From NCBI RefSeq assembly GCF_003688855.1, contig NZ_REFW01000001.1, positions 124,001 through 188,000 of the forward strand: a stretch of DNA of 64,000 nucleotides, read 5' to 3'. Positions 1,296 through 43,771 of this stretch are shown here, one piece after another; within the stretch, counting starts at the first letter, position 1; the number at the start of each line of letters is the position of its first letter. Source of the DNA: Tessaracoccus antarcticus. Lineage in GTDB: Bacteria; Actinomycetota; Actinomycetes; Propionibacteriales; Propionibacteriaceae. A program made the position numbers and the translations under genes. The notes under the pieces were generated by a model that ran no database searches, had not been told where the DNA came from, and saw nothing but the letters and a program-made list of their open reading frames with translations.

Positions 1296-4200
1296 CTACT
1301 TGAACCTCACGATGTTGTTGAACAGCCAGCCGTTGGTCCAGTAGTACGTGCGGTTGCCACCCGCCTCCACCCTGGATGCGATGTAGCTGGCCCAGATGAA
1401 GCTGCGGCAGCCGTTGCGACCGGTGGCCGGGGTGTCGCACTCGGTACGCCACTTCCGCCCCTCGGTGGACGTCCACTCCCCCGCGTGCCCCAGCGGGTTG
1501 CTGGTCCACTGGGAGCGCTTCATGTAGGGCAGGTACGTCATGTTGTTGAAGTACCAGCCCGTGCTCGGCCGGAAGGCACCGTTGACGTAGGAGACCTGGG
1601 TGGCCCAGATCGACGTACGGCAGCGGACCGTCTGCGAATACGGCTCACACGTGGTGAACCACTTCCGCCCGTTCACGTCGTGGTACCCCGGCGTCGAATA
1701 CAGATCACTCTGACCCGATGTCGGCTTCACAGTCGGTGTCGCCGTGGGGGTGGCCGTTGCCGTCGGTGATGCCGTGGGCGTGGGCGTGGGTGTCGGTTCG
1801 ACGAGCGTCGCCTTCTCCACGAGCATCGCCGCCGTACGCGCCGGGACGGTGAGGGTGCCGTCGGCGGCCACCCACCCCGTCGCCTTGACGACGGCGTCCT
1901 GGCCGCCGGCCTGCACCTCGCTGAGCGCGAACTGGCGACCCGCCAGTGCCGGCACCTTCGTGGTGATGGTCCCCGGCGTGGCGTTGATGGCCACCAGGAC
2001 CCCGTCGAGGTCCTCATCGACGTCGACGGCGAACGCGCCGGATCGGTCATCCACCGCCATCAGGACGAGTCCCGGCACCTGGTCCGTGCCGGACCCGGGG
2101 AAGGTGACGCGCTCACGCACGAGGGCGTCGGTGCCAAGACTCAGCAGCGGCGTCGACTTCCGCAGACGGAGCAGGTCCAGGGACTGCGCCAGCGACGCCT
2201 CCATGGCCGCCTTGTCCGGTTTCAGGGCCGGGTTCTCGAGCAGCGGCTTCATGACGGGCCACTTCTCCCCGTTCTTGTCCTTCACGGGCAGGCCGGTACC
2301 GAACGTGTTGCTCTCCAGGCTCCAGTCGACGGCGTTGAAATGGTCGCCGGAGTTGTACGAGTCACGGTCCAGGGACTTGGACCGCAGGATCTCGGTGCCG
2401 GCGTGCCAGAACGACGGCGACTGCCCCAGCGCGACCGTGGCCAGGGAGATCGTGTTCATCCGTACACGATCAGCCATGGAGGTCCCCACGGGGAGCTTCA
2501 TGATGGCGAGGTCGTACAGCGTCTCGTTGTCGTGGGCGTCGACGTAGTTCACCGACTCCTGAGGCATGCTCGAGAACCCAGCCGGTTGCCCGTTGTAGTC
2601 GAGCTCGGATCCCTTCTTCACGGTCCCGTCGGCAGCCAGGAAGGAGTAGTCCTTGAGGTTGCCGGCCATGCCGAGGCGGACGAGGTCGCTTGAGTGCTTG
2701 AGCGCTGCCAGCTGCTCGGCGCCGGTCTGGGTGGAGAGACCGTTGGGGTCGGTGTAGAGCCCCGTTCCGAGTCCCTGGTTGACGCGGTGGTCCTCGTCGA
2801 AGGGGCCGCCGCCGTGAACTGCGTCGCGGAGTCGGTCGTTGAAGGCGCCGATGCCGGTGCCGTCGAGTTGGCCCTGCGTCGCCTGACGGAAGCGGGCGTT
2901 GTCGGCCACCTCACCGAAGTTCCAGCCCTCGCCGTAGAGGTAGACGGCGGAGCCGTCGATGCCATCGGTGGCCATCGTCAGCTCGTTGAGTGCGGCGCGG
3001 ACGGCCTCCATGTTGGCGCGGGAGTGGTGGCCCATGAGGTCGAAGCGGAACCCGTCCACGTGGTAGTCGCGGGCCCAGGTCACCACCGAGTCCACCATCA
3101 TTTTCTGCGCCACCTGGTTCTCCGTGGCCACGTTCTCGCAGCAGGTGGACGTCTCGATGACACCCGAGGCCGAGAGGCGGTGGTAGTAGCCGGGCACCAC
3201 TTTGTCGAGCACGGACTTGGCGTCCTGCCCCGAGGCGGCCGTGTGGTTGTAGACCTCATCGAGGACCACCTGCAGCCCCGTGTCGTGGAGTGCACCCACC
3301 ATCTCCCGGAACTCGTAGCTTCGCCTACCACCCACCTGGTTGGCGTCGGTGGCGTAGGAGCCCTCCGGCGCACTCCAGTGCAGCGGGTCGTAGCCCCAGT
3401 TGAAGGCGTCCTTGTCGGCGACGGCGGTGACGGCGGCCTGCTGATCCTCCGATGCCGACCCGGCGTCCGACGGGATGGCGGGGACGGCCTGCTGGGTGCG
3501 GTCCTCCGGGATCGTGGCGATGTCGAAGGTGGGCAGAAGGTGCACGGTGTCGATGCCCGCCTCCGCCAGCGTGGCAAGGTGCTGCATGCCGGTGGAATCC
3601 TTGCGGGTGAACGCCTTGTACGTGCCCCGCTCGGCTTCCGGCACGGATGCGTCGGCGATGGAGAAGTCGCGGACGTGCAGTTCCCAGATGGCGCGCGATG
3701 CGTCGTTGCGCACCGTCGGGGCCGCCACGTCACGCCACTGCTGCGGCGCGAGTTCCGGGTCGTCGAGGTCGACGAGGACCGAGCGCGTCGAGTTCACCGT
3801 CAGCCCCAGCGAGTACGGGTCGGTGACGTCGTTGGTCACCACCGCATCCATGGACGGCACGAAGACGTCGATGGACCACAGGTACTGGGAGTCCTTCCAG
3901 GACGCGTCGCCGGTGACGGACCACGTGCCGTCGTCGGACTGCGTCGCCTCCACGGCCACGGGGTCACCCGCACCCCCGGCGGGCCAGCGGTGGAGCGACA
4001 CGTCCTTGGCGGTCGGGGCCCAGACGCGCAGCGTCGGGATGCCGTTGGTCCAGACGGGACCGAGGTCCACGTTCTCGACGGCGTCCCCGTAGAGGGCGTC
4101 GAGGACAGGTGCGATCTGCACGGATGTGGCCGCCCGCAGGACGTCACCATCTCCGGCACTGACCAGCAGTTCACCGGTCAGGAGGTCCGCCACGGCTGCG

Positions 4201-11335: not shown

Positions 11336-12628
11336 TCAGATTCCCTTTCCCAGGGTGATGAGGGTGATGTCGCGGAAGTTGGCGGCGTCCAGCATGCGAC
11401 GACCGTCGACGACCACCTGCACGCCCGGCAGGTCGTCGGCCGTCAGGTCGCGGTACTGGGCGTGGTCGGTGTGGACGATGACGACATCGGCGGGCTCACC
11501 CATGTGATGGGCGCGGAAGCCGAGGCGGCCGAGTTCGTCGTCGCTGAACAGGGGGTCGTGCACGGTCACATCAGCGCCCAGGGACGTCAGGGCGTCGACG
11601 ACGGGGAAGACGCCGGACTTGGCCGACTCCTTGACCCCACCGCGGTAGGACGCCCCCAGCACGACCGCCTTGCGTCCGGCAAGCGACCCCATCGCCTTCT
11701 CCGCCAGTTCGACGGCGTAGGCGGGCATGGCCTCGTTGGCGAGTCGGGCGGTTTCGACGATGGAGGCGTCGGGATCCGTCCACAGGTACAGCCGCGGGTA
11801 GATGGGGATGCAGTGGCCGCCGACGGCGATGCCGGGGCGGTGGATGTGGCTGTAGGGCTGCGAGTTGGAGGCCTCGATGACCTGGAACACGTCGATGCCG
11901 TTGTCCCCGGCGAAGCGGGCGAACTGGTTGGCCAGGCCAATGTTGACGTCGCGGTACGTCGTCTCCGCCAGCTTCGCCATTTCGGCGGCCTCGGCGGAGC
12001 CGAGGTCCCACACGCCGTTGCCGCGCACCAGGTCCGGGCGCTCGTCGAACTGCAGAACCGCCTCGTAGAAGGCGGTGGCACGCTCGGCGCCGCCGGGCGA
12101 GACGGCGCCGATGAGCTTGGGGTACTTGCGCAGGTCCGCGAAGACGCGACCCGTGAGGACCCTCTCCGGGGAGAAGACGACGTGGAAGTCCTCGCCCTCC
12201 TTCAGGCCGGAGCCCTCCTCCAGCATGGGGGTCCAGCGGGTGCGGGTGGTGCCGACGGGCAGCGTGGTCTCGTAGCTGACGAGCGTGCCGGGCGTGAGCC
12301 CCTTGGCGATGGAGGCGGTGGCGGCGTCCATGGCCGCGAACTCGGGGGTGCCGTCGGCCTGGACGAACAGCGGGACCACGATGACGACGGCGTCGGACTC
12401 GGCGACGGCGGCGACGGTGTCGGTGGTCGCCCGCAGGCGACCCTCCGGCACCAGGACTGCCAACTTCTCGGCCAGGTGGGCCTCGCCGGGGAAGGGTTCG
12501 GTGCCGGCATTGACCAGGTCCACGATGGTGGTGTTGATGTCCGTGCCGATCACCTCGTGCCCCGAGTCTGCGAACTGGACGGCGAGCGGGAGGCCGATCT
12601 TGCCCAGCGCGACGACGGTGATCTTCAA
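11336..12628 (-). CDS. UDP-sugar 6-dehydrogenase (WbpA/WecC family)
   Basis: This is a 430-residue NAD-dependent UDP-sugar dehydrogenase. It has the Rossmann start KITVVALGKIGLPLA, the FSPERVLTGR block, the E-M-A-K-L-A-E-T helix, and the catalytic cysteine C273 in GIAVGGHCIPIYP. Such enzymes oxidise C6 of UDP-GlcNAc or UDP-ManNAc to the uronic acid. The window has a second dehydrogenase at 36482 that looks like classical WecC. This copy is therefore the better candidate for the WbpA step (UDP-GlcNAc to UDP-GlcNAcA) that feeds WbpB/E/D; that split is inferred. TTG start with GGGAG 6 nt upstream. It leads a two-gene operon with the glycosyltransferase. Confidence 0.88.
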   Translation of the reverse strand: MKITVVALGKIGLPLAVQFADSGHEVIGTDINTTIVDLVNAGTEPFPGEAHLAEKLAVLVPEGRLRATTDTVAAVAESDAVVIVVPLFVQADGTPEFAAMDAATASIAKGLTPGTLVSYETTLPVGTTRTRWTPMLEEGSGLKEGEDFHVVFSPERVLTGRVFADLRKYPKLIGAVSPGGAERATAFYEAVLQFDERPDLVRGNGVWDLGSAEAAEMAKLAETTYRDVNIGLANQFARFAGDNGIDVFQVIEASNSQPYSHIHRPGIAVGGHCIPIYPRLYLWTDPDASIVETARLANEAMPAYAVELAEKAMGSLAGRKAVVLGASYRGGVKESAKSGVFPVVDALTSLGADVTVHDPLFSDDELGRLGFRAHHMGEPADVVIVHTDHAQYRDLTADDLPGVQVVVDGRRMLDAANFRDITLITLGKGI

Positions 12629-15139: not shown

Positions 15140-16126
15140 CTACAGCGTGACGGTCTCGCCGGTGGTGGCGGACTCGATGACGGCTTCGGCCACACGGACG
15201 GTGTTGAGGCCCTGTTCCAGGGTCACGATGTCCGCGTCCTTGCCGAGGACGGCGTCGCGGAAGTTCTCGTGCTCACGCAGCAGGGGCTCCGGCTTGGGGA
15301 ACGCGTAGCGCACCACGTCGCCCTCACTGACACCGCGGAAGTGCGCGATGTCGGACCATGTGCTCTTGACGGTCCCGTTGACGTAGTACGTCAGGTCCGC
15401 GGTCAGCGTGTCGGCCACGAACGTGCCGGTCTCACCGGTGATGATCGTGACGCGCTCCTTCAGCGGGGAGAGCCAGTTCACCAGGTGGTTCGCAACGATC
15501 CCGCCCTCGAGCCGGCCCGTGACCGAAATCAGGTCCTCGTACTGGCGCCCCGAGAGGTTGTTGGCGTTCGCCGCCACCTGCTCGTAGCGCGACTGCACCA
15601 CCCACGCGGTCAGGTCAATGTCATGGGTGGCGAGGTCCTTGACCACACCCACATCCGCGATCCGGGCCGGGAACGGACCCTGCCGGCGGGTCGCGACCTG
15701 GATCACACGCCCCAGCTGACCCTCAGCGATCCGCCTGCGGGCCTGCTGCAACGCCGGGTTGTAGCGCTCGATGTGGCCCACAGCACCCACCAGGGACGCC
15801 TTCGCGAACGCGTCGACGAGCTGGTTCGAGCTCACCACATCCACCGCCAGCGGCTTCTCAATGATGGCATGCACCCCGGCCTCGGCCAGCTTCAAACCCA
15901 CCTCCAGGTGCAGTGCCGTGGGCACCGCCACCATGCAGTAGTCCAGCTTCAACTCCAGCAGTTGCTCCACAGTGTCAAACACCGGGCGCCCACCAGCCAC
16001 GTTGAACTTGTCGCCCCCGGGATCCATGATCCCCACCAGGTCGACACCCTCCAGGGACCCCAGCACGCGGGCGTGGTGACGCCCCATCATGCCGATCCCG
16101 ATCAGACCAGCCCTCAGGTTTCCCAT
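15140..16126 (-). CDS. wbpB: UDP-GlcNAcA 3-dehydrogenase-like oxidoreductase (WbpB type, Gfo/Idh/MocA family)
   Basis: This 328-residue protein has the Gfo/Idh/MocA layout: Rossmann start LRAGLIGIGMMGRHHARVLG, the EKPLAVD motif in the nicotinamide-binding loop, and DVGVVKDLATHDIDLTAW with the H-D-x-D catalytic block. WbpB-type enzymes oxidise C3 of UDP-GlcNAcA so that an amino group can be placed there. It lies 1 nt after the aminotransferase gene and is the last gene of a wbpD-wbpE-wbpB operon, which strongly supports the role. Codon use changes inside the gene: the first two thirds favour GTG, GCG, GGT and GAT, the last third favours C-ending codons like the neighbours. Confidence 0.86.
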   Translation of the reverse strand: MGNLRAGLIGIGMMGRHHARVLGSLEGVDLVGIMDPGGDKFNVAGGRPVFDTVEQLLELKLDYCMVAVPTALHLEVGLKLAEAGVHAIIEKPLAVDVVSSNQLVDAFAKASLVGAVGHIERYNPALQQARRRIAEGQLGRVIQVATRRQGPFPARIADVGVVKDLATHDIDLTAWVVQSRYEQVAANANNLSGRQYEDLISVTGRLEGGIVANHLVNWLSPLKERVTIITGETGTFVADTLTADLTYYVNGTVKSTWSDIAHFRGVSEGDVVRYAFPKPEPLLREHENFRDAVLGKDADIVTLEQGLNTVRVAEAVIESATTGETVTL

Positions 16127-16127
16127 C

Positions 16128-17216
16128 TCAGGCACCTGCCTTCGCCAAAGCATTGACAGCGGCCACGACACGCTCCAGGTCAGCCCGGGACAGCGACGGG
16201 TGCACCGGCAACGACAGGCACTCCTTGGCGGCACGCTCGGTCTCCGGCAACTCCACCGGCGACTGGAACGGCTTGAGCCGGTGGTTCGGCACCGGGTAGA
16301 ACATCCCCGAGCCCACCTGGTACTGCTCCTTCAACGCCGCAGAGAAACCATCACGGTCATCGGCCACCCGCACCGTGTACTGATGGAACACATGCACCGC
16401 ACCCGGCAACGTCGGGGGCGTCACAACACCCTCCAGGTTCGCTGAGAGGAACGCCGCATTCTCCTGACGCTGCGTGGTCCAGGCACCCACCTTCGTGAGC
16501 TGCACCCGACCAATCGCGGCATGGATGTCCGTCATGCGGTTGTTCAACCCCACAACCTCGTTGTGGTACTGCTGCAACATCCCCTGGTTGCGGTACAGAC
16601 GAAGGTTGCGCTCCACCACCTCAGTGGCGGCCGAGACCATCCCACCCTCACCGGAGGTCATGTTCTTCGTCGGGTACAGCGAGAACATCCCGAACTCACC
16701 AAACGCACCCACAGGGGTCCCGTTCAACGACGCACCATGCGCCTGCGCAGCATCCTCGAACAACATCAGGCCGTGCTTGTCAGCAATGGCCTGCAACTCC
16801 GCCATCTTCGCCGGATGACCATACAGGTGCACCGGCATGATCGCCTTCGTGCGCTCCGTGATGGAGGCCTCCACCGACGCCGGATCCAACGTGAAGTCAT
16901 CCGCCGCAATATCGGCAAACACCGGGGTGGCGCCCGTCAGCGCCACCGAGTTCGCCGTCGCCGCGAACGTGAACGACGGAACGATGACCTCGTCACCAGC
17001 CGCGATGCCACACGCCAACAAACCCAGGTGCAAACCAGACGTACCCGAGTTCACAGCCACACACGCACGCCCGAGCTTGAAATGCTCCGAGAACTCCTCC
17101 TCGAACGCCTTGACCTCGGGACCCTGCGCGATCATGCCGGAACGCAGAACCCGATCAACGGCCTCACGCTCCTCGTCACCAATGATGGGCTTGGCCGGGG
17201 GGATGAAATCAGTCAC
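16128..17216 (-). CDS. wbpE: UDP-3-keto-GlcNAcA aminotransferase-like (WbpE type, DegT/DnrJ/EryC1/StrS family)
   Basis: This 362-residue PLP enzyme starts TDFIPPAKPIIGDEEREAV. It has VNSGTSGLHLGLLA, the IVPSFTFAATANSV block, FEDAAQAHGA with the PLP-contacting Asp, and the Schiff-base lysine K184 in LYPTKNMTSGEGG. WbpE relatives transfer an amino group to C3 of the keto sugar, with glutamate as donor. GTG start at 17216 with GGAGG 7 nt upstream; its GTGA overlaps the stop of wbpD, so translation is coupled. Codon use is unlike that of wbpD upstream: G-ending Ala, Pro and Leu (TTG) codons and GAT, CGT and GGT are common. This suggests a different origin. Confidence 0.9.
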   Translation of the reverse strand: MTDFIPPAKPIIGDEEREAVDRVLRSGMIAQGPEVKAFEEEFSEHFKLGRACVAVNSGTSGLHLGLLACGIAAGDEVIVPSFTFAATANSVALTGATPVFADIAADDFTLDPASVEASITERTKAIMPVHLYGHPAKMAELQAIADKHGLMLFEDAAQAHGASLNGTPVGAFGEFGMFSLYPTKNMTSGEGGMVSAATEVVERNLRLYRNQGMLQQYHNEVVGLNNRMTDIHAAIGRVQLTKVGAWTTQRQENAAFLSANLEGVVTPPTLPGAVHVFHQYTVRVADDRDGFSAALKEQYQVGSGMFYPVPNHRLKPFQSPVELPETERAAKECLSLPVHPSLSRADLERVVAAVNALAKAGA

Positions 17217-17809
17217 TGAGAAACCTCCACGAGTGTTTCGTTGTCTTGCGTGTACAGGGAACCGGTCTGCGGGCACACCCACAGGCCGGGTTCTTCTCCG
17301 GGCTCCAGTGGGACGCCAGCGCGACCCACCCACCGGATACGACGCGCGGGGACACCGGCGACGAGGGCAAAATCAGGGACGTCCTTGGTGACGACGGCGC
17401 CGGCGGCCACCATGGCCCAACGGCCGATGGTGACGGGCGCGATGCAGACGGCGCGCGCGCCGATGGAGGACCCCATGCGGCAGGTGACGCCCACGGCGTC
17501 CCAGTCGTCGCCACCCTTGATGTTGCCGTCAGGATCGATGGCACGGGGGAAGTAGTCGTTGGTGAAGCAGGCGGCCGGACCGACGAAGACGCCGTCCTCC
17601 AGCACTGCTGGTTCGTACACGAGCGCGTAGTTCTGCACCTTGCAGTTGTCGCCCATCTGCACGCCGGTGCCGACGTAGGCGCCGCGTCCGATGATGCAGT
17701 TCCTGCCGAGCACAGCCTGTTCCCGCACCTGCGCCAGATGCCAGACCGATGAGCCCTCCCCGATGACCGCGTCAGGCGAGACGTCGGCACTGTCCTGGAT
17801 GCGCACCAT
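17213..17809 (-). CDS. wbpD: UDP-GlcNAc3NA N-acetyltransferase-like (WbpD type, left-handed beta-helix)
   Basis: This 198-residue protein consists of hexapeptide repeats from about residue 10 to 150, for example AVIGEG, CIIGRG, YVGTGV, VFVGPA and IGARAV. Such left-handed beta-helix enzymes use acetyl-CoA, and the sequence around FTNDYFPRAIDPDGN is typical of WbpD. It would acetylate the 3-amino group to give UDP-GlcNAc3NAcA. The start ATG 17809 has AAGGAAG about 6 nt upstream; an in-frame ATG at 17845 lacks this. It is the first gene of the wbpD-wbpE-wbpB operon. Codon use matches the surrounding genome, unlike wbpE. Confidence 0.88.
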   Translation of the reverse strand: MVRIQDSADVSPDAVIGEGSSVWHLAQVREQAVLGRNCIIGRGAYVGTGVQMGDNCKVQNYALVYEPAVLEDGVFVGPAACFTNDYFPRAIDPDGNIKGGDDWDAVGVTCRMGSSIGARAVCIAPVTIGRWAMVAAGAVVTKDVPDFALVAGVPARRIRWVGRAGVPLEPGEEPGLWVCPQTGSLYTQDNETLVEVSQ

Positions 17810-17840
17810 GCAGATCTTCCTTCCGTTGACCCCGCTCGCG

Positions 17841-17846
17841 AGCATA
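17841..17846 (-). promoter_or_regulatory. -10 box of the wbpD-wbpE-wbpB operon
   Basis: TATGCT on the - strand (17846 to 17841) fits TANNNT. It gives a leader of about 25-30 nt that includes the AAGGAAG ribosome binding site. Confidence 0.45.

Positions 17847-18983: not shown

Positions 18984-18987
<4 letters not shown>
17890..18987 (-). CDS. Glycosyltransferase, GT-B fold
   Basis: The product is about 365 residues with a GT-B layout. It starts near NPRLAIVTTGHDVADARLHR, has WVADVHEDYRALL in the acceptor half and PSKIYEYLACGLPTIATPLP as donor-binding loop. It probably adds a sugar to the lipid-linked polysaccharide. The start is unclear. The reading frame overlaps the stop of the ABC ATPase gene, and the only codon at the natural N-terminus is CTG at 18987, which would form a CTGA overlap with that stop. 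A canonical ATG exists only 60 nt further inside the ATPase gene (19047), and a GTG lies 10 codons downstream of 18987. It is the last of five genes in one operon with the exporter. Confidence 0.8.
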
Positions 18988-19830
<843 letters not shown>

Positions 19831-19853
<23 letters not shown>

Positions 19854-20694
19854 GCTCCCTCGAGATGAAGTAGAGAAGGCCACCGAAGAACAGAAGGACT
19901 GCCCAGGCGACCGCGATGGCCACGTAGTGCCACGGCACGTGGTGGCCGGCCAGCGCGTCCGACCACATGCCCAGCGGCCCGAACAACGGGTTGACGAACT
20001 GGGCGAACTTTCCCAACGGGTGGTTGCCGAATTTCGTGACGAATTCCTCGGCTGAGTAGAGCACCGGCGAGAGGTACAGCCACACCCGGATGAAGTAGGG
20101 CAGGAACTGGGCGGTGTCGCGGAAGTACACGTGCCACGTCGCCACGATGGCGCCGATACCGGAGGAGATCATGCTGGCCAGCACCACCACCACGGGCAGC
20201 CACAGCAAGCTCAGGGTCCACGGCTTGCGGAAGATGACGTGAATGACGAGGTAGACCAGCATCGTCGGCGCGAAGCGGCGCAGCGACAGGTACAGGTTGG
20301 ACATGATCAGCAACGACTTGGGGAAGTTCATGTTGAGGATCAGGCTGCCGGCGTTGGTCACCGACGTGGCGCACGATGTGATGACGCCCGAGATGAAGAA
20401 GAAGAGGAACAAGCCGGAGGTGATCTGCGCGAAGTCGGCGGTCTTGGACCCGGAGATGATGAAGATCAACAGGTAGTAGACGCCGGCCAGCATCAGCGGG
20501 TTCAACACCAGCCACAATTGGCCCAGCACCGTGTTGGTATTGCTGGCGCGCATGTTGGTGTCGGAGAGCTCCTTGGCGAAGTCGCGACGCTTCCAGAGCT
20601 CCGTGAAGTACTCCCTGAGGTCCGGGAGACCTGCCTTGTGGGGGGTGTAGACACGCACGTTGGACATGTCTGCAGACTGCTTGCTCACAGCCAT
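19831..20694 (-). CDS. wzm: Polysaccharide ABC exporter, permease (Wzm/TagG type)
   Basis: The product is 287 residues with about six membrane segments after a cytoplasmic N-terminus that contains LREYFTELWKRRDFAKELS. Typical ABC-2 permease features are the first helix QLWLVLNPLMLAGVYYLLIF and YFRDTAQFLPYFIRVWLYLS before the fifth. With the adjacent Wzt it would flip a complete lipid-linked polysaccharide chain across the membrane. ATG 20694 has AGGGGG about 5 nt upstream, better than the upstream in-frame start at 20829. The locus lacks a Wzx/Wzy pair, so ABC-dependent synthesis is the natural reading. Confidence 0.92.
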
Positions 20695-20725
20695 GCGTCC
20701 CCCTGACCATGATCGTGGAACCGCA

Positions 20726-21895
20726 TCACGGCAACTCCTTCTGCTCTTTCTCGCCCAGCTGCGTGTAGATCGCCAGGAGGCGATCCGCGTCCGTTTCCCA
20801 GCTGAGCTCCGGGCGCGCTCGCCCGACATTACTCACCAGTGTCGGGTATTGCTCCACCGCATCACGAATTGCGGCCACCAGCGACTGCGCGTCGCCCGGC
20901 TTGTACAGGGTGCCCAGATCGTGTGTGCGCACCATCCGGGCCAGCTCCCCCACCTCCGTGGCCACCACGGGGACCCCGAGGCTGACGGCGTGGAACAGCT
21001 TGTTGGGCATGGCCAGCCGGTGGTTCTCCCACTTGTCGGAGTGCGTCACCAGGGAGAGGCCAGCGGCCTGGATGAGGTCGGAGGCGCCGTCCAGGGGCAG
21101 TGCGGGCCTCACGTCGAGACGCCCCCTGTCGAAGGAGGTGAGCCAGGTGTCGTCGGAGGGGCCGACGACGGTGATGGGCAACTCGACCTGCCGGCTGGCG
21201 GCGGAAATGGTCTCCAGCTCACGGAACGCCGCGACGCGTCCCGCGTACACCAGCCCGGCGGGGGCGGGGAGCGGGGCGGGCAGCTCCGGCAGCAGCGGGA
21301 AGGTGTTGTGCACGACGGAGACGTTGTCCCAGCCGTACTGGCGGCCCAAGGCGGCCGCGACGCCGTCCCCGACGGTGATGACCGCGGCCGCCTGGCCGCC
21401 GAGCTCCGCCTCGAGGCGTCGTTCCCGGCGGTCCGCGAGCGGGGTGGGACGGTACTCACGCGGCAGACCCGTCCACAGTTCGTGGGAGTCGTAGACCAGC
21501 GGTGCCCCGTGCTCGCGGGCGAGCCGGGCGCCAGCAGCCAGCGCGGTGAAGTCGTGGGCGTGGACCACGTCGAAGTCGCGGTCCTTGGCGTCGAGGTAGG
21601 CGCCCTCTGCCCACCGGCCGAACGAGCTGCGGCGGTGCTGCGGAAGCAACGTCCATCGCGCCAGCCGCATCGGGGCCGACAGCGTCCGCCCTTTCAGGGA
21701 CGGCTGGCCCTCCGCCCGGAACACCGACGAGGTCCCGACGGTGGAGACGGTGATCCCGTCCACATCCTGGAAACCCTCGGGCACCGAACGACCGACGATG
21801 TGCACGCTGTGGCCGGCACCCACGAGGGTGCGCGCCTCCCGCAGGACTCGGGTGTCGGTGGCCACCGTGGTGGCCACGAGCATCAGGATTCTCAT
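20726..21895 (-). CDS. Glycosyltransferase, GT4-like
   Basis: This 389-residue GT-B enzyme starts MRILMLVATTVATDTRVLRE, with the D-T-R loop seen in many GT4 enzymes. It has FDVVHAHDFTALAAGARLA, then VYDSHELW, and in the donor domain LVYAGRVAAFRELET and MPNKLFHAVSLGVPVVATEVGE. It is the second gene of the five-gene exporter operon, 11 nt after the preceding stop. A GTG at 21910 that overlaps the upstream stop could also be the start and would add five residues. The sugar and acceptor cannot be told from sequence. Confidence 0.85.
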   Translation of the reverse strand: MRILMLVATTVATDTRVLREARTLVGAGHSVHIVGRSVPEGFQDVDGITVSTVGTSSVFRAEGQPSLKGRTLSAPMRLARWTLLPQHRRSSFGRWAEGAYLDAKDRDFDVVHAHDFTALAAGARLAREHGAPLVYDSHELWTGLPREYRPTPLADRRERRLEAELGGQAAAVITVGDGVAAALGRQYGWDNVSVVHNTFPLLPELPAPLPAPAGLVYAGRVAAFRELETISAASRQVELPITVVGPSDDTWLTSFDRGRLDVRPALPLDGASDLIQAAGLSLVTHSDKWENHRLAMPNKLFHAVSLGVPVVATEVGELARMVRTHDLGTLYKPGDAQSLVAAIRDAVEQYPTLVSNVGRARPELSWETDADRLLAIYTQLGEKEQKELP

Positions 21896-26014: not shown

Positions 26015-26401
26015 GTGGACCCAGTGACGCAATCCGACCAGACACCCCACCTCCATGAGGTGGCCCTTGCCGAACTTGACGTGGCGAACCGCCACCTTTC
26101 AGACGCAGGCCGCACCATCGACGAACTTCGCTCCGACGTACTCGCCCTCGCCTCCCGCGTTGACGCCGCCCGGGCGGAGGCCGAGGCCTTCCGCCACGAA
26201 CTCGGGCGGGAGCACTCGGGCACCGCCGCCCTGCGGGGACAGGTGGACATCGCTGCTGTGGAACGAGAGGAACTCCAGCAGAGGATCGCCGGGCTCGAGG
26301 CCCACGTCGCCCGGCTGAAGAAGCAACTGGAGCGGCCCGGCCGTCTCATGGTGAAGAAGGCCCTGCGCCGCGGGCAGTACGCGAAGCCGGAGATCTCGTG
26401 A
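26015..26401 (+). CDS. Small coiled-coil protein, partner of the next glycosyltransferase
   Basis: This 128-residue protein is almost entirely helical. Heptad patterns run from about residue 12 to 105 (for example LAELDVANRHLSDAGRTIDE and LQQRIAGLEAHVARLKKQL). The last 20 residues are basic (RPGRLMVKKALRRGQYAK) and might sit on the membrane surface or bind phosphate groups. No enzyme motif is present. Its stop overlaps the start of the glycosyltransferase at 26398 (GTGA), so the two are translated together. A similar arrangement is seen at 35629. A role as scaffold or length ruler for the glycosyltransferases is inferred only. Confidence 0.7.
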   Translation: MDPVTQSDQTPHLHEVALAELDVANRHLSDAGRTIDELRSDVLALASRVDAARAEAEAFRHELGREHSGTAALRGQVDIAAVEREELQQRIAGLEAHVARLKKQLERPGRLMVKKALRRGQYAKPEIS

Positions 26402-27585
26402 CGGGCACCGTCGCCCCCAGAGATACCGTGCTGGATGTGTTACGGGAGCGGCACGACTTCGTTCTCGTTGCCGTCACCTACCCGCACCGCTGGCGCACGG
26501 GGTCCGAATATGTCCGCAGCCGCGCCGACGCCTATGCGGCGGCCGGACTGCGTGGTGTCGTGGTGGACTACTCACCGCTCAACGTCGCCGAACCCCACAT
26601 GGAATCCGACACCACCCCCGTGGCCGTGATCCGGCCCACCGACCTGCCCGCAGCGCTGGAGGCCATCGCCGCGGCCGGCTCCCCCGTCCTGGCCCACTCC
26701 CCCACGCCCCAGGCCCTCGACGAGTTGCACGCCCGCATCCCCGGGGAGCGCCTGGCCGTGTGGTTCCACGGCTACGAGGTGCGCGACTACCGGCGCCTGC
26801 AGTGCAACACCACCACCGAGGAACTGTTCGCCATCCGCCACATCCGCGACGCCCAGAACCGCGACCGGTTCCGCGCGGCCGCGCCAGTCTTCAGCGACCC
26901 TGCCGTCACGAAAGTGTTCGTCTCCGACATCCAGAGGCAGTACTCGGAGTTCGACGTGGGCGTCGCGGCCACCCATGTGGAGATCATCCCCAACCACATT
27001 GACGAGGACACCTACCGGGCGCGGGAACGCCGACCCGATGAGGCCCGCAGGATCCTGCTGATGCGTGGCTTCGCGCAACTCAACTACGCCAACGACGTGG
27101 CCCTGCGGGCACTGGAGATCTGCTCCCGCCGCGACGGCTTCGGCGAACTGGACATCACGGTGCGCGGCTACGGGCAGCACTTCGGGAGCGAGGTGAAGGG
27201 GGTCCGGACGTTCGACAACGTCACCGTCGAGGAGGGTTTCTCCAGCCCCGCCCAGATGGCAGCGCTGCACGACGCACACGGGGTGTTCCTGTGCCCCACG
27301 CGCTACGACACGCAGGGGGTCATGCTGGGTGAGGCCATGGCCAGCGGCATGGTGACCATCACCAACCCCGTGGCCGCCATCCCGGAGTTCACCGACGACA
27401 CGTGCAGCCTGCTACCCCGCGGCAACGACCCCTGGGCGTTCGCCGACTCCCTGTGGGAACTCGTCCAGGACCCGGGACGGATGCCGGCCCTGTCCCGCAA
27501 TGCCGCCGCCCGGGTGCGCCGGCAGTGCGGCACCACCGCCACCATTGACCGTGAGATCGAGCTGATCCGGGGGCTGACGCCATGA
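26398..27585 (+). CDS. Glycosyltransferase, GT-B fold
   Basis: This 395-residue protein starts with a less typical acceptor domain (FVLVAVTYPHRWRTGSEYV, AVWFHGYEVRDYRRLQ). The donor domain is clearer: RILLMRGFAQLNYANDVALR, then GVFLCPTRYDTQGVMLGEAM and ASGMVTITNPVAAIPEF, which is the E-x7-E-like region of GT4 enzymes. GTG start overlapping the coiled-coil gene, and its own stop overlaps the ATG of the next gene (ATGA). The three form one tight operon that starts at 26015. Confidence 0.82.
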   Translation: MTGTVAPRDTVLDVLRERHDFVLVAVTYPHRWRTGSEYVRSRADAYAAAGLRGVVVDYSPLNVAEPHMESDTTPVAVIRPTDLPAALEAIAAAGSPVLAHSPTPQALDELHARIPGERLAVWFHGYEVRDYRRLQCNTTTEELFAIRHIRDAQNRDRFRAAAPVFSDPAVTKVFVSDIQRQYSEFDVGVAATHVEIIPNHIDEDTYRARERRPDEARRILLMRGFAQLNYANDVALRALEICSRRDGFGELDITVRGYGQHFGSEVKGVRTFDNVTVEEGFSSPAQMAALHDAHGVFLCPTRYDTQGVMLGEAMASGMVTITNPVAAIPEFTDDTCSLLPRGNDPWAFADSLWELVQDPGRMPALSRNAAARVRRQCGTTATIDREIELIRGLTP

Positions 27586-28808
27586 CCTTCCACACACCCG
27601 TGGTCTTCACCGACGACGGCGCCGTGGCCGCCGCCTCCCGATCCCGGGGTTGGCCCGTGGTCAGCCGTGACGGTGCCAACCTGCGGCTCACTGGTGTCCA
27701 GCAGAGCGTCCCCGTGCCGGAGGAGGCCATGCGCATCGAGGCCGGGTCCCTGACGGGACCCCACGTCGCTGGCTGGAAGCTTGTCCTGGACTGGCTCGAG
27801 AAGCATCTGCATCGCCCCCTCCTGGTGGTGGAGCCAAACGGCTGGGTGCAGGACCTGGCCCTCTGGTCGGCGTCCTCCCGCGGTTGGCCCATGGCGTCAT
27901 GGGTGCACGGGGATGCGCCCGTCGTCGCGGCCGCCGGGGCGGTGGCACTCGTCGCCTCCGGCCAGGGCGTGCTGTTCCTCGACGATGACACCCGGTCGCG
28001 CTTCACCGCCGGTTGGCGCTCGACGATCACGGAACTCCCCTCCACCCCGCTCATCGACGTGCCGCGTCCCGGCGCGCCCACACCCTCGTCGCGCAGAGAG
28101 GGCGTCACACGCGTGCTTGTGGTGGCCTACTACGCCGGGGACAGCCCCACCGTCGGCGCCCAGCGGCCCACCTACTGGTTCGAGGAGTTGGAACGCCTGT
28201 CCGGCGGCGACATCACCGTCGACCTCGCCACCGCTGCGCCGTGGGATGCGGCGCACGGCCGGGTGCACCACGTACCCGACCTCGGGCCGGCCACCCTTGC
28301 CCCTGGCCGGGGCCCCATCGACACCTGGGCCACGGTCGCGTTCACACACGCCGCTGACAGGGCCTACGCCCCCACCCGCCACGTGGGCGGGTACTGGCAC
28401 GTGGCGCTGGAGCGCTGGTTCGCGGCGCGCGACGACCACTTCGACGTCGTCATCATCACGGGCGAGGATTTCGAGTACTTCGGGTTCGCGGCGTGGGCTC
28501 AGAACCACTGGTATGCCCGCACCGTTGTGGACTACGGCGCGCCTGCAGAGTTGGTCCGTCGACGCTCATTCCCGGGGGCCGCGGGTGTGCAGGCTGCGGA
28601 TGAGGAACGGGGCTGGAACATGGCCGCGGACCTCACGACAGCCCCCGATGCAGCCACCCTGGCGCTGGTGGAGCGCAGCGGACCTCAAGCGGTCCTTGAG
28701 GTGATCCCCGACCATCGGGATGGAGACAAACCCCAAGCCACACGACATTTGGTGGCCGTGATCCGCGAGCTGGGTCGCTCTGCACACAGGCCTGCCACAG
28801 ATTCTTAG
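27582..28808 (+). CDS. Glycosyltransferase-like protein of unknown specificity
   Basis: This 408-residue protein has no signal peptide or membrane segment. The first 170 residues hold Rossmann-like pieces (PLLVVEPNGWVQDLALW, MASWVHGDAPVVAAA). The second part restarts with TRVLVVAYYAGDSPTVGAQR, PTYWFEELERLSGGD and FDVVIITGEDFEYFGFAAW, which resembles the N-terminal domain of GT-B enzymes. I do not see a complete donor-binding domain, so it may be half an enzyme or a subunit. It is the last gene of the 26015 operon. Confidence 0.6.
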   Translation: MTFHTPVVFTDDGAVAAASRSRGWPVVSRDGANLRLTGVQQSVPVPEEAMRIEAGSLTGPHVAGWKLVLDWLEKHLHRPLLVVEPNGWVQDLALWSASSRGWPMASWVHGDAPVVAAAGAVALVASGQGVLFLDDDTRSRFTAGWRSTITELPSTPLIDVPRPGAPTPSSRREGVTRVLVVAYYAGDSPTVGAQRPTYWFEELERLSGGDITVDLATAAPWDAAHGRVHHVPDLGPATLAPGRGPIDTWATVAFTHAADRAYAPTRHVGGYWHVALERWFAARDDHFDVVIITGEDFEYFGFAAWAQNHWYARTVVDYGAPAELVRRRSFPGAAGVQAADEERGWNMAADLTTAPDAATLALVERSGPQAVLEVIPDHRDGDKPQATRHLVAVIRELGRSAHRPATDS

Positions 28809-28871: not shown

Positions 28872-28886
28872 TCTGACGTGGTGGTT

Positions 28887-31292
28887 ATGTCTTCCGTTCG
28901 AACACATCGGCGAATCCTTCCTCTACTGGTTGCCGTCCTCCTCGGCTGCATCGGGGCGGTGGTGCAACTCCCGCAGACCGCGGCAGCAGAGGACCATCCC
29001 TACACGACGCCGGGGCAACGCGAGTACAACGGCAGGCTGTGGAACACCACGTGCGAGGACTACTCCTCCACGGCGAAGCGCTGCCGTGCAGAGATTTGGG
29101 CAACCCAGGTGAAGGTGATCGACGGTACATACCAGTTCGTCAACGGGTTCGCCTTCAACAACCTCACCTACCTCCCGTCCAACAGGGAGAACTGGAAGAA
29201 CAACCCGCTCGGCAAGGACGGCCAGTTCATCCAGGACGGACGCATGTGGCAGACCGAATGCGACACCGCCTGGACCGGCAAGAACGGCTGTCGCTCCTTC
29301 ATCTTCGCCAGCGTGATCGAACCCACGAAGACAGCGACCGGCTGGACGTTCAAGAAGGTCGACAAGTGGCTGTTCAACAACGTGGTGCAGTTCACCCCCG
29401 TCGTCTCGACGCCGCCGCCGGCGGGGCCCAAGAATCCCTGCAACATTGATCCGCCGGCAGGGTGGACATTCACGTCGGAGGGTCGCCCCCACCTCATCAA
29501 GCCCGGCTATGAACCGGCCGACCACTACAACCCCATCTCCCTGGCCAACTTCACCAAGCTGGCGTTGAGGATGGATCCCACGAAGGTGAAGGAGGCCGAC
29601 CGCCTCTGCTTCGCCCTGCTGGGGGCCAACGAACTCCTGAAGAAGGATGAGACGCGCACCTACGAGGGCAGGGAAAGCCTGTGGTTCCCCTACCCCTTCG
29701 GCTTCTCCGCCAACCCGGCCGTGGACGACCTCCCCGCCGGCTGGAACTCCGGCCTGGGTCAGGCCGGCGCCATGACGGCCATGTTGGAGTTGTCGAAATT
29801 CGTGGGCGAACTCGACAAGCCGGTGGCAGAGCGGACGTGGGAGAACGTCGCCAGGAAGATCTACAACTCCTACCTCATCCCCCTCGACAAGGGCGGCTTC
29901 ACCAACCGCGAGAACGGCTTCCTGTGGTTCGAGGAGTACCCCACCACCCCCGATCCCACCGTCGTCAACAACGGCCACCATCAAAACGTGCTGGCCCTGT
30001 ACAGCTACTGGCTGCGGACGAAGGACCCCGAGGCGTTGGCTCTCTTCGATGAAGCTGTTGCGGACATGGGCCCCCAGACCATCAAGTCGGAAGTGCCCCT
30101 GGAGGGCGGCACCATGTCGTCCTACGACCTGATGCGCGGCTACCAGGCCACCCCCCTGCGGGCCGTGTCCCTGGGCAACGCAAAGATCACCCAGACGCTG
30201 CTCAACGGGCAGCCCCTGACCGCCTATCCGGACAACAAACCACGCTATGACAAGGCCACGAAGGCCGCCACACTGCCCCTCGGCAGCCCCAGCGGCAGCG
30301 CACCGGAAATGGTCGCGAACCCCCACATGAACGCCGTGGTGAACAAGGTCCCAGCAGGTTGGCGTGCCGTCAATGGCAACGTCGCAGGCCTGCGCGGCCC
30401 TGACAGCCTCGGCATGATAGGCGTCCACCCCAACGGATCGTCCTGGGCGGGTCTCGAGCAGATCATCCCCGCGTCGTCGTGGACCACCAAGGCATCGCCC
30501 GGTTCCCGTCTCTCGATGGCCATGAACTCACGCTTGGAGATCACGGCAGGCGCCTCGGGCACGGGAGGCAAGGTCTCCATCTACTCCGTGTGCCCGGCAC
30601 CCGGCAACAAGACCACCACCACCCTCATTCTTGAGAACCCGAAGAACCGCTCCCAGAATCGCGTGTCGTGGTCCACCGCCGATTTCACTGCCCCGGCAGC
30701 CAACTGCGACATCAAGATCCAGCTGCTCACCTACAGCTACGGCGTCGACAACACCACCGCCTGGTATGACGACGTCACCCTCAGCGCTGCCGACCCGTTG
30801 GGCCCCAACGTTGCACCCGCCTACGACCTGCTGGTGCACAGGACGCCCACCAACACCCTCACCGTCAAGGGCACAGGGAAGGTGGCCGTCCAGGGGTACT
30901 ACGGAGGCCGCTGGCTGACCTTCGCGGAAGGCACGCTGACCTCTGCCGGACTCAACGTGAAGGTTCCCGAGCGCTACACGGGGCGCAACATCAACTACAA
31001 CTACCACGACGGGCACATCTCCGAACTGCAGCTCATCGCCTGCTACTCGGGGGAGAAGTCCCTGGATCAGATTGCGAAGCGCTGGAGTGCGATGGCCACC
31101 AAGCCCTACAGGGACTTCTCGAACAACTCCTCGTGCAGGGAGATCCCGCGCGTCCTGGATGTCGGCGGCAATCCCGTGTTCGTCGAGGCGGAGCCCGCCC
31201 CCATGTCGGAAGTCCCCACGGTCGTGCCGACCACCATGGCCCTCCCCGAGGACGCCTCGCCGGCATCATCCGACGGGTCCGAGGACGAGTGA
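28887..31292 (+). CDS. Secreted uronyl C5-epimerase-like protein with N-terminal Cys-repeat module
   Basis: This 801-residue protein has a signal peptide (about 1-34, ending TAAAE). The duplicated Cys module follows (38-170). A domain resembling the C-terminal catalytic part of D-glucuronyl C5-epimerases (about 280-440) comes next, with WNSGLGQAGAMTAMLELSK, then WFEEYPTTP (347-354) and VVNNGHHQNVLALYSYWL. The EYPTTP block and the N-G after it match animal heparan sulfate epimerases as I know them. A beta-rich region (about 480-640) and a Ser/Pro/Glu-rich tail end it. It would act outside the cell and invert C5 of uronic acids in an exported polymer. That substrate is inferred from the uronate genes around it. 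ATG 28887 is preferred; GTG 28878 adds three residues. Confidence 0.78.
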   Translation: MSSVRTHRRILPLLVAVLLGCIGAVVQLPQTAAAEDHPYTTPGQREYNGRLWNTTCEDYSSTAKRCRAEIWATQVKVIDGTYQFVNGFAFNNLTYLPSNRENWKNNPLGKDGQFIQDGRMWQTECDTAWTGKNGCRSFIFASVIEPTKTATGWTFKKVDKWLFNNVVQFTPVVSTPPPAGPKNPCNIDPPAGWTFTSEGRPHLIKPGYEPADHYNPISLANFTKLALRMDPTKVKEADRLCFALLGANELLKKDETRTYEGRESLWFPYPFGFSANPAVDDLPAGWNSGLGQAGAMTAMLELSKFVGELDKPVAERTWENVARKIYNSYLIPLDKGGFTNRENGFLWFEEYPTTPDPTVVNNGHHQNVLALYSYWLRTKDPEALALFDEAVADMGPQTIKSEVPLEGGTMSSYDLMRGYQATPLRAVSLGNAKITQTLLNGQPLTAYPDNKPRYDKATKAATLPLGSPSGSAPEMVANPHMNAVVNKVPAGWRAVNGNVAGLRGPDSLGMIGVHPNGSSWAGLEQIIPASSWTTKASPGSRLSMAMNSRLEITAGASGTGGKVSIYSVCPAPGNKTTTTLILENPKNRSQNRVSWSTADFTAPAANCDIKIQLLTYSYGVDNTTAWYDDVTLSAADPLGPNVAPAYDLLVHRTPTNTLTVKGTGKVAVQGYYGGRWLTFAEGTLTSAGLNVKVPERYTGRNINYNYHDGHISELQLIACYSGEKSLDQIAKRWSAMATKPYRDFSNNSSCREIPRVLDVGGNPVFVEAEPAPMSEVPTVVPTTMALPEDASPASSDGSEDE
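28998..29396 (+). repeat. Tandem Cys-repeat module, N-terminal in the C5-epimerase-like protein
   Basis: Residues 38-170 hold two copies of the same unit as in the amylase-pullulanase tail. Copy 1 is NGRLWNTTC...CRAEIWATQ...GFAFNNLTYLP. Copy 2 is DGRMWQTEC...CRSFIFASV...KWLFNNVVQF. Between the copies NNPLGK matches SNPLGH of the other protein, so the whole pair was duplicated or exchanged as one block. Here it is N-terminal, in the other protein C-terminal, so it is a portable module. Confidence 0.82.
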
Positions 31293-31327: not shown

Positions 31328-31364
31328 CGATCCCCGACACCGATGTGTCGGGGATCGTGCTTTT
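31328..31364 (+). terminator. Rho-independent terminator after the C5-epimerase-like gene
   Basis: CGATCCCCGACA-C pairs with G-TGTCGGGGATCG around a short loop, 13 bp in all, followed by TGCTTTT. It is the most classical terminator in the window and makes the epimerase-like gene a single-gene unit. The rest of the 31293-31513 gap has a possible -10 TACGGT (31446-31451) for the next gene. Confidence 0.88.
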
Positions 31365-31513
31365 CCGTCGACGCCCGCACTTCGCGTGGTCGTGGACGCC
31401 ATCAGCGGACCCCTCCGTCAAGATCCTCGACGCCGCGGTGGGCGCTACGGTGTCCGGGTACCGGTCGTCCCGCCCCAGCCGGATCAGGCGACCCCCATCA
31501 ACTGGAGCTTTCG

Positions 31514-36412: not shown

Positions 36413-36481
36413 GACATCGAGAAGCCGTCCCCCGGGTCGGCGACGGATTGTTGTCAATTGAGGCGATCAGGAGATCACGGA

Positions 36482-37708
36482 GTGACAAAACCAGACGTGT
36501 GCGTGGTGGGCCTCGGCTACATCGGCCTCCCGACAGCCGCAATCTTCGCCCACAAGGGCAAGCAGGTCCACGGTGTCGACGTCAGCCCCAGAACAGTGGC
36601 TGCGGTCAACTCGGGGAAGGTGCCGTTCGTCGAACCCGACCTTGGCGGCTTCGTGGAGCGCGCCGTCTCCAACGGCACGCTCACAGCCTCCACCGAGCCC
36701 GTCCCGGCGTCCACCTACATCATCGCGGTGCCAACGCCCTTCCACGATGACCACAGTGCCGACCTCAGCTACATCGAGGCCGCCACCCGTGCCGTGTCCC
36801 GCCACCTCACTGGCGGCGAGCTCCTCATCCTGGAGTCCACGTCCCCACCCGGCGCCACGCAGCACATGGCGGACGTGGTGGCACAGGAGCGGCCGGACCT
36901 GGCCCACGCCGGGATCAAGTTCGCCCACTGCCCTGAGCGGGTCCTGCCCGGCCGTGTCATGGTGGAACTCGTCGAGAACGACCGCATTGTCGGCGGAATC
37001 ACCCCCGAGGCGGCCGAAGAGGCCCGTGAGCTCTACCGGGTGTTCTGCGAGGGTGAGATCCTCCTGACCGATGCCACCACCGCGGAGATGGCGAAGCTGG
37101 TGGAGAACAGCTTCCGCGACGTCAACATCGCGTTCGCCAACGAGCTGTCCATCATTTCCGACAAGCTCGGCATCGACGTGTGGGAGCTCATCGAGCTCGC
37201 CAACCACCACCCCCGGGTCAACATCCTGCAGCCCGGCCCCGGCGTGGGCGGCCACTGCATCGCCGTCGACCCGTGGTTCATCGTCGCGGCCGCCCCCGAT
37301 GAGGCCCGCCTCATCCGGACGGCACGCGAGGTCAACGACAGCAAGCCCCGCTACCTCATGGAGCGCATACGGGCCGCCAGCGAGGGCACGAACGAACCAA
37401 CGGTCGCCATGCTGGGTCTGGCATTCAAGCCCAACATCGATGACCTGCGCGAGTCCCCGGCACTCCAGATCGTCCACGACTACGCCGAGGCGCATCCGCA
37501 GTCGCGCGTCCTTGCCGTGGAGCCGCACGTCGAGGAACTGCCGGCGAAACTGGCGGGGCTGTCCAACGTGCGTCTCACCCCCACCGATGAGGCGATTGAC
37601 GCGGCGGACGTCGTCGTTGTCCTGGTGGACCACGACGCATTCAAGGCCATCCCCGCGCATCGCGTCGCGGAGAAGCAGGTCGTGGACAGCAAGGGGCTCT
37701 GGCGCTGA
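36482..37708 (+). CDS. wecC: UDP-N-acetyl-D-mannosamine dehydrogenase
   Basis: This 408-residue protein oxidises UDP-ManNAc to UDP-ManNAcA with two NAD+. The match to WecC is close: VCVVGLGYIGLPTAAIFA at the start, ESTSPPGAT, HCPERVLPG, and PGPGVGGHCIAVDPWFIV with catalytic C259. The last third holds MLGLAFKPNIDDLRESPAL. The WecB-type epimerase 4.5 kb downstream supplies its substrate. GTG start with GGAG 8 nt upstream. It leads a + strand operon with a glycosyltransferase, a methyltransferase and the PP-loop gene. Confidence 0.93.
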   Translation: MTKPDVCVVGLGYIGLPTAAIFAHKGKQVHGVDVSPRTVAAVNSGKVPFVEPDLGGFVERAVSNGTLTASTEPVPASTYIIAVPTPFHDDHSADLSYIEAATRAVSRHLTGGELLILESTSPPGATQHMADVVAQERPDLAHAGIKFAHCPERVLPGRVMVELVENDRIVGGITPEAAEEARELYRVFCEGEILLTDATTAEMAKLVENSFRDVNIAFANELSIISDKLGIDVWELIELANHHPRVNILQPGPGVGGHCIAVDPWFIVAAAPDEARLIRTAREVNDSKPRYLMERIRAASEGTNEPTVAMLGLAFKPNIDDLRESPALQIVHDYAEAHPQSRVLAVEPHVEELPAKLAGLSNVRLTPTDEAIDAADVVVVLVDHDAFKAIPAHRVAEKQVVDSKGLWR

Positions 37709-42136: not shown

Positions 42137-43288
42137 TCAGTTCCCCTGGACGTCGAACTCCGGCATCCGTTTGCCAACGTTGAGGAGTTCCGCGATCGCC
42201 GCGGCACTGCGCTCACCGGCAAGGCCATCACCATACGGATTCACCGCGGTCGACATCGCCTTGTACACAGCAGGATCATCCAGCAACACATCCACCTCCG
42301 CCACGATCCGCTCCGTCGTCGTACCGATCAGCTTCACCGTCCCCGCATCCACAGCCTCCGGGCGCTCCGTGTTGTCCCGCAACACCAACACCGGCTTCCC
42401 CAGACTCGGCGCCTCCTCCTGGACACCACCCGAATCCGTCAGGATCAGGTACGCCAACTTCTGCACGTGCACGAACTCCGCATAATCCAGGGGCTCACAC
42501 ACCAAAATATTGTCGTGATCCGCGAACAACGGCAGGATCTCCTCGCGCACCTTCGGATTCTTGTGCGCCGGGAACACAAACACCGTGTCCGGACGCGCCG
42601 CAGCAAGCTGCGCCACCGCCCGACCAATCCGGCGCATCGGCTCCCCCAAATTCTCACGGCGATGCGTCGTCAACAACACGATCCGACGCTCCTCCCCCGC
42701 CAGTGCGGCGATCCGGGGATCCGTGAACGTGACCACCTGCTCAGCAGTCCAGTGCAACGCATCAATCACCGTGTTGCCCACCACACTGACGATCGCCGGA
42801 TCAATACCCTCACGCAACAAGTTGTCCCGCGACAACGTCGTCGGCGCCAGATGCAACGCCGTCACCTGACCCGCGAGCTTCCGGTTCGCCTCCTCCGGGA
42901 ACGGCGAATGAATATCACCCGAGCGCAACCCCGCCTCCAGGTGCACCACCGGAATGTTGTGATAAAAACACGCGATCGCAGCAATGGCCACCGTCGTCGT
43001 GTCCCCCTGCACCACCACCGCATCCGGGCGACGCTCCGTCAACACCTTCGGCAACTCCTGCAGGATCCGTGCCGCCAACTCCGTCAACGTGGCACCCGGA
43101 TGGAACACCTTCAGATCCAGATCCGGCGTGATCCCGAACCACTGGTTGACCTGATCCATCATCTCCCTGTGCTGACCAGTACTCACCACGATCGGGTTCA
43201 GCACCGACGACGCCTCCAGCGCACGGATCAACGGCGCCATCTTCACCGCTTCGGGACGTGTGCCATAAACGACCATGACCTGCTTCAT
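42137..43288 (-). CDS. wecB: UDP-GlcNAc 2-epimerase (WecB/WbpI family)
   Basis: This 383-residue protein starts KQVMVVYGTRPEAVKMAPLI, the signature of non-hydrolysing UDP-GlcNAc 2-epimerases. It has VQGDTTT, HLEAGLRSGDIHSPFPEEAN, LTTHRRENLGEPM and the LTDSGGVQEEAPSLGKPVLV block. It converts UDP-GlcNAc to UDP-ManNAc. WbpI, which does the same with UDP-GlcNAc3NAcA, is a relative, and since this locus has WbpB/E/D the enzyme may serve that step or both. Codon use (GCG, CCG, TTG, GAT, GGT) differs from its neighbours and resembles wbpE. ATG start with GGAGAG upstream. It converges with the PP-loop gene, 34 nt apart. Confidence 0.93.
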   Translation of the reverse strand: MKQVMVVYGTRPEAVKMAPLIRALEASSVLNPIVVSTGQHREMMDQVNQWFGITPDLDLKVFHPGATLTELAARILQELPKVLTERRPDAVVVQGDTTTVAIAAIACFYHNIPVVHLEAGLRSGDIHSPFPEEANRKLAGQVTALHLAPTTLSRDNLLREGIDPAIVSVVGNTVIDALHWTAEQVVTFTDPRIAALAGEERRIVLLTTHRRENLGEPMRRIGRAVAQLAAARPDTVFVFPAHKNPKVREEILPLFADHDNILVCEPLDYAEFVHVQKLAYLILTDSGGVQEEAPSLGKPVLVLRDNTERPEAVDAGTVKLIGTTTERIVAEVDVLLDDPAVYKAMSTAVNPYGDGLAGERSAAAIAELLNVGKRMPEFDVQGN

Positions 43289-43318
43289 GCGGCTCTCCTT
43301 CGTGGACTACGTCCAATC

Positions 43319-43324
43319 ACCCTA
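43319..43324 (-). promoter_or_regulatory. -10 box of wecB
   Basis: TAGGGT on the - strand (43324 to 43319) fits TANNNT. It gives a leader of about 24 nt with the GGAGAG ribosome binding site. Confidence 0.5.
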
Positions 43325-43462
43325 TCCATGCGCGCCCGCTGCCGTGGCGAGGGCTGGCCGGGCGCCGCCAATGGGCGAGTCCCTGCTCACAGCTCCCGCA
43401 GGGACCAGCCGGGACCCACTGCTCGTGTTCGGCGCTGCTCGCGGCCTGACCCGCGTCCGCCC

Positions 43463-43468
43463 TAGGGT
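43463..43468 (+). promoter_or_regulatory. -10 box giving a leaderless start for the EspC-like gene
   Basis: TAGGGT is followed by 6 nt and ATG 43475, with no ribosome binding site. It probably drives the whole 43475-46468 operon. Confidence 0.55.
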
Positions 43469-43474
43469 CTGGCC

Positions 43475-43771
43475 ATGGACTACACCGTGCAGATCGGACG
43501 GCTGGAGCACCACGGGCGCGACGTTGCGGCCGTCGGCGCCGATGCCGCCTACACCCTGCACGCTGTGCGCCTCGACGCGGCCGCCACCGCCATGCCGGGT
43601 TCGATGTCAGGCGTCGCAGCCGTGGCTCTCCATGGCAGGTTCGCGTCGGCGGCTGGCACGCTGGCCAGCGGGCTGGAGGCGTACGGGTCTTCCACGCATG
43701 CCACCGTCGACGGCTACCGGCAGCAGGAGGACAAGGCCGCGGCCGCCATCACCCAGTTCTTCGGGGGCTGA
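43475..43771 (+). CDS. EspC-like small type VII secretion substrate
   Basis: This 98-residue protein is helical and Ala-rich, without a signal peptide. Two helices are separated near PGSMSG (41-46), the place where WXG100-type proteins turn. Near the C-terminus Y81-RQQ-E85 fits the type VII secretion signal YxxxD/E. This combination is typical of ESX substrates of the EspC/WXG100 kind. The next gene encodes a protein with a WxG helical hairpin, so the two probably form a co-secreted dimer. ESX machine genes (mycP, eccC) lie 12-20 kb to the right. Confidence 0.68.
   Translation: MDYTVQIGRLEHHGRDVAAVGADAAYTLHAVRLDAAATAMPGSMSGVAAVALHGRFASAAGTLASGLEAYGSSTHATVDGYRQQEDKAAAAITQFFGG

Follow-up and report, generated by a model that had tools for sequence, protein, structure and literature searches.

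The open reading frame (ORF) at 28887..31292 (+ strand) of a 64,000-nucleotide stretch of the Tessaracoccus antarcticus genome (the whole of which we term the window) encodes an 801-amino-acid uronyl C5-epimerase of the GLCE type. Taking all the evidence together, we consider it probable (about 0.7) that this is an exported, wall-attached C5-epimerase that acts on the polysaccharide of its own locus. The family, the predicted fold, the catalytic residues and the locus context are established by computation. The protein begins with a module that recurs at the ends of many other proteins of the same genome, and this module would probably hold it at the cell wall.

The frame runs from 28878 to 31292 (+), with an ATG at 28887. 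The protein matches C5-epim_C (PF06662) at E = 2.6e-15, scoring 56.8 bits against a curated Pfam cut-off of 23.3. A phmmer search of the PDB sequences at E <=10 gave three matches, all of which are GLCE. In the alignment the catalytic residues E499, Y500, N510, Y560 and Y578 of human GLCE correspond to E350, Y351, N362, Y413 and Y706 (i.e. five of five are kept), and the predicted structure (model m629b7cd8771d) has the GLCE fold. A sequence-only reading of this DNA had remarked on the resemblance to the catalytic domain of animal GLCE and had named PF06662 and the GLCE fold as a check; both agree with it.

Residues 1-35 (28887..28991, the 105 nt ahead of 28992) form an apparent export signal, read by eye from the sequence and an alignment of six sequences. 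Export, which the sequence-only reading had also proposed, is therefore likely. All further parts are again on the + strand. The N-terminal module, comprising two homologous beta repeats, occupies residues 36-175 (28992..29411). The first catalytic part (residues 189-420; 29451..30146) contains E350, Y351, N362 and Y413, the first two lying within the motif WFEEYP (residues 347-352; 29925..29942). It is separated by a beta-sandwich insert (residues 469-636; 30291..30794) from the second catalytic part (residues 696-738; 30972..31100), which contains Y706 and H707. The insert is like carbohydrate-binding module (CBM) family 16, and Foldseek also relates it to the CBM22 and CBM4 folds. The sequence-only reading had noticed neither the insert nor the multiple copies of the terminal module.

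The gene lies in a polysaccharide locus. A wbp-like set occupies 11336-17845 (-), where four enzyme classes lie close together: a WbpA-like nucleotide-sugar dehydrogenase (11336..12628, -; TIGR03026 305.2 bits, cut-off 189.8), a WbpB-like Gfo/Idh/MocA oxidoreductase (15140..16234, -), a WbpE-like DegT/DnrJ/EryC1 aminotransferase (16128..17333, -; PF01041, 4.4e-116) and a WbpD-like hexapeptide-repeat acetyltransferase (17213..17845, -; PF00132, 2.7e-19). The start codons of the second and third are uncertain, and these Wbp-type assignments are made from family and gene order, with no specific NCBIfam equivalog passed. Beside them is an ABC exporter with a Wzt-like ATPase (18984..19883, -; PF00005, 6.3e-22), for which the best NCBIfam model is teichoic acid export at 207.4 bits, below its cut-off of 538, and a Wzm-like permease (19831..20829, -; PF01061 at 7.6e-05, below cut-off; NF050109 56.4 bits, cut-off 380). 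There are several glycosyltransferases in the window, including one of group 1 at 26398..27585 (+; PF13692, 9.4e-11). The UDP-ManNAc 6-dehydrogenase WecC is encoded at 36458..37708 (+; NF008286 581.5 bits, cut-off 459) and the UDP-GlcNAc 2-epimerase WecB/MnaA at 42137..43288 (-; TIGR00236 458.6 bits, cut-off 210.15). We note that five ORFs of the locus (27582-28808, 31343-32350, 35629-36324, 41005-42102 and 43275-44546) have no Pfam match at 1e-3.

The source genome (3.65 Mb in 13 contigs) has a second PF06662 copy elsewhere that is 38% identical to the window copy. Named full-length relatives come from Tessaracoccus, uncultured Arachnia and one Propionibacteriaceae metagenome-assembled genome (L012-L022), the closest being 73% identical. 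A tree of epimerase copies has 24 rows, 16 of them different. In clade A the epimerase gene is directly before wecC at four loci (L012, L013, L014 and the fragmented L022), with the same type of glycosyltransferase gene nearby as in the window, where epimerase and wecC are 5.2 kb apart. In clade D (L016, L021) it is between a WbpD-like gene and a glycosyltransferase gene, and at a clade B locus (L019) it is within the same polysaccharide locus. PF06662 was found in 13 of the 39 genomes of our genus sample, and all 13 have a WbpE homologue. One paralogue (L017:9989-12205) has WFELYR in place of WFEEYP, thus losing the catalytic glutamate, and is possibly inactive.

Both WecB and WecC score above curated cut-offs, so that UDP-N-acetylmannosaminuronate (UDP-ManNAcA) is well supported as a precursor. 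WecB is the only PF02350 match in the genome; there is no second match that might be a WbpI 2-epimerase. Since the sole 2-epimerase is of WecB type, the expected precursors are UDP-2,3-diacetamido-glucuronate (UDP-GlcNAc3NAcA) and UDP-ManNAcA, unless the WecB-type enzyme also takes the diacetamido sugar. The expected products of C5 inversion would then be L-ido from GlcNAc3NAcA and L-gulo from ManNAcA. The diacetamido-uronate locus suggested by the sequence-only reading is thus upheld in its WbpA/B/E/D-type set, together with wecB and wecC, and falls short at WbpI. Its proposed substrate, 2,3-diacetamido-D-mannuronate converted to the L-gulo form, is not secured for the same reason, and we think it unlikely; the L-gulo idea survives best for ManNAcA. 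C. acnes belongs to the same family as the source organism. The wall polysaccharide of C. acnes is described as containing that uronate (PMC6598116), which speaks for the proposal, as do the wbp-type genes in the locus, the presence of wbpE in every epimerase genome, and an extra gene near wbp in L016 and L021 that is 31-32% identical to the window 2-epimerase. The single PF02350 match in the source genome argues against it, as does the position of the clade A genes adjoining wecC rather than wbp.

We propose that the epimerase would be secreted and then held at the wall through its N-terminal module. An already exported uronate polysaccharide would bind in the active-site cleft, perhaps also via the CBM-like insert; if the enzyme is indeed exported, its action would be at the level of the polymer. 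Uronic residues in the chain would then be inverted at C5 by proton abstraction and re-addition, as in animal GLCE. Likely substrates would be the uronates from the same locus, i.e. D-ManNAcA giving N-acetyl-L-gulosaminuronate (L-GulNAcA), or 2,3-diacetamido-D-glucuronate giving its L-ido form.

Proton abstraction at C5 is common to lyases as well, and the protein might instead be a uronan lyase or degradative enzyme for an environmental polysaccharide rather than a wall modifier. The CBM16, CBM22 and CBM4-like folds of the insert would suit such a function, as would the degradative domains (GH26, GH10 and GH123) found with several copies of the module. Against this, all five epimerase catalytic residues are kept, the clade A and D genes sit among biosynthetic genes, and wbpE is present in all 13 epimerase genomes of the genus, so that we consider a degradative role distinctly improbable.

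A number of observations nevertheless weigh against a wall-attached epimerase serving its own locus. Degradative enzymes also bear CBM-like domains, and an enzyme for foreign uronans is a possibility. Human GLCE is 14-15% identical over the aligned residues, the structure model has a mean pLDDT of 73.5 and a pTM of 0.57, and the best 50 matches of a plain Foldseek search with it included CBMs but no GLCE. Seven loci were checked from clades C, E and F, and at all of them the epimerase is outside a polysaccharide locus; its neighbours there, identified by eye, are ftsE with prfB, a phosphofructokinase-like gene or the two combined. In genome G152 (locus L200) the 19.5 kb around the clade B copy contain no match to wbp, wecC or an exporter. 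Lastly, the WbpE homologue is also present in 14 of the 26 genus genomes without the epimerase.

The terminal module (residues 36-175) has 62 matches in the genome at E <=1e-3, of which 54 cover almost the full module. The second copy in the window is the C-terminal end (1296..1700, -; 53% identity, E 5.9e-39) of a pullulanase ORF at 1296-7523. The two halves of the module consensus are repeats of one another, with an alignment score of 103 compared with a mean of 31 and a maximum of 55 in 300 shuffles, and the structure model has a pLDDT of 93.2. The module has no significant match in Pfam, the PDB or viral models, and neither SLH nor CWB2 is among the six Pfam families matched at E <=1 by any of 34 module sequences. 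Its position was examined in the best 30 of the 62 matches, and it is at a protein end in all 30. Twenty-one are C-terminal, ending 0-4 residues ahead of the stop codon. The remaining nine, of which two are epimerases, are N-terminal, starting no more than 85 residues from the upstream stop of the frame and after an apparent signal region. Pfam hits were obtained in 16 of 20 module proteins scanned among these 30, and the partners include GH26, GH10, GH123, subtilases, beta-galactosidase domains, 5'-nucleotidase, CAP and LRR. Most of the C-terminal module proteins are represented by their last ~630 residues, so it is from these domains that we infer their export. The module is thus a multi-copy, undescribed, anchor-like domain that recurs terminally in the epimerase and in many other proteins of varied kinds. 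It has the look of a terminal wall-anchoring module, and probably serves as one.

Module matches were found in six of the 394 genomes of a class sample, and the five besides the source genome are distant (27-38% identical). Among eight ORFs of these distant relatives that were scanned there was Amidase_2 in two, SpoIID in one and nothing in five; the three with a hit are wall enzymes. Four genomes of one family (f29; L180, L182, L183, L185-L187) each have two or three clustered distant relatives. Outside the Propionibacteriaceae, an ORF of Brevibacterium senegalense (L034) has the module at 52% identity, a possible transfer. At three clade E loci (L015, L018 and L198) a second module-bearing gene follows the epimerase gene.

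Within the genus the epimerase and the expanded module occur together. The 13 epimerase genomes have 11 to 66 module matches each; of the 26 others 24 have none, G129 has one and G161 has 16. With a threshold of at least 10 matches the two agree in 38 of 39 genomes (13/13 with the epimerase, 25/26 without; Fisher p 1.7e-9, uncorrected for kinship). For module expansion the corresponding p is 0.028 with WbpE and 0.019 with WecC, both uncorrected; WecC is above its cut-off in seven epimerase genomes and three without. On a seryl-tRNA synthetase (SerRS) tree covering 38 of the genomes the epimerase label requires 8 changes, and well-supported branches force at least 6 of these. The label is clustered, with a mean of 11.0 changes on shuffling and 12 of 500 shuffles as low. 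Six independent pairs gave five in the same direction, none opposite and one with no difference (p 0.0625, the minimum attainable with five differing pairs), compared with means of 2.8 and 0.2 in the same and opposite directions for WecC. A search with the clade E catalytic part found nothing credible in G161, G129, G164, G139, G171, G147 or the Brevibacterium genome of L034. Of the 147 genomes in a family sample, five from outside the genus encode PF06662 proteins and lack the module, so the enzyme family does not depend on it.

This co-occurrence raises the possibility, which we hold tentatively, that the polymer, once epimerised, serves as ligand for the module, i.e. that L-uronate sites made by the enzyme on the wall polysaccharide are bound by the module proteins, the epimerase included. 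This would be an addition to an epimerase acting on its own locus's polymer, and does not exclude it. The agreement in 38 genomes, the repeated changes on the tree and the direction of the pairs are all in its favor, and the epimerase copies are drawn from different clades and from two or more kinds of locus. However, the epimerase itself carries the module, so the association is partly built in and some would be expected for any module protein; the label clusters on the tree, and the pairs do not go below p 0.0625. Moreover G161 has its 16 module matches without an epimerase, and the Brevibacterium genome has the module with no match to the catalytic part. In the fuller form of this idea, equally tentative, L-uronates made from the D-uronates of a wall glycopolymer could be the receptor of a two-repeat module anchoring some 50-60 exported proteins, with enzyme and module gained and lost jointly in the genus; this would be another type of surface display on a modified polymer.

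Should the epimerase really be linked to the module, this would account for the wall retention of a large actinobacterial surface proteome, and the epimerase may prepare the wall polymer to which many surface proteins cling. The enzyme is also relevant to a possible route of L-GulNAcA formation. This sugar is described in a Vibrio exopolysaccharide, with C5 inversion of ManNAcA proposed (PMC3901696), and the C5-epimerase has been called unknown (PMC4432689).

A first comparison is with human and zebrafish GLCE (6hzz, 6i01, 6i02, 4pw2 and 4pxq), the low identity noted above applying to the human chains. Unlike these, the window enzyme has an N-terminal anchor-like module and a bacterial polysaccharide locus, and its last two catalytic tyrosines are 293 residues apart, with the CBM16-like domain between them, compared with 18 in GLCE. 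A 2026 account (PMC13308652) names a single bacterial glucuronyl C5-epimerase as identified, that of Bermanella. This GLCE-type enzyme (B. marisrubri RED65_08024) is described as active on desulfated heparan sulfate or heparin (PMC4432689, PMC13308652), and its native target was called unknown in a 2015 review (PMC4432689); the likeness is drawn from these descriptions, where the portions concerned mention no anchor module. The window enzyme adds gene context, a candidate polymer and a genus where its presence alternates with its absence. Halobacterium Agl32, another prokaryotic glucuronyl C5-epimerase, reportedly lacks the GLCE catalytic residues and works on a lipid-linked glycan before export (PMC13308652). 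The alginate epimerases AlgG and AlgE are described as acting similarly, from D-manno to L-gulo on the polymer (PMC13308652, PMC4432689), whereas no AlgG/AlgE-type match is among the four Pfam families found at E <=10 for the window enzyme. The module, for its part, recalls the CsaB/SLH (PMC10435577) and CWB2/PSII (PMC4973711) systems, in which many exported proteins are described as carrying at one end a repeat module that is tied to a wall polymer. Pyruvylation by CsaB is reported to serve SLH domain binding (PMC10435577); in the window system, whose module matches neither Pfam family, the putative modification would be C5 inversion.
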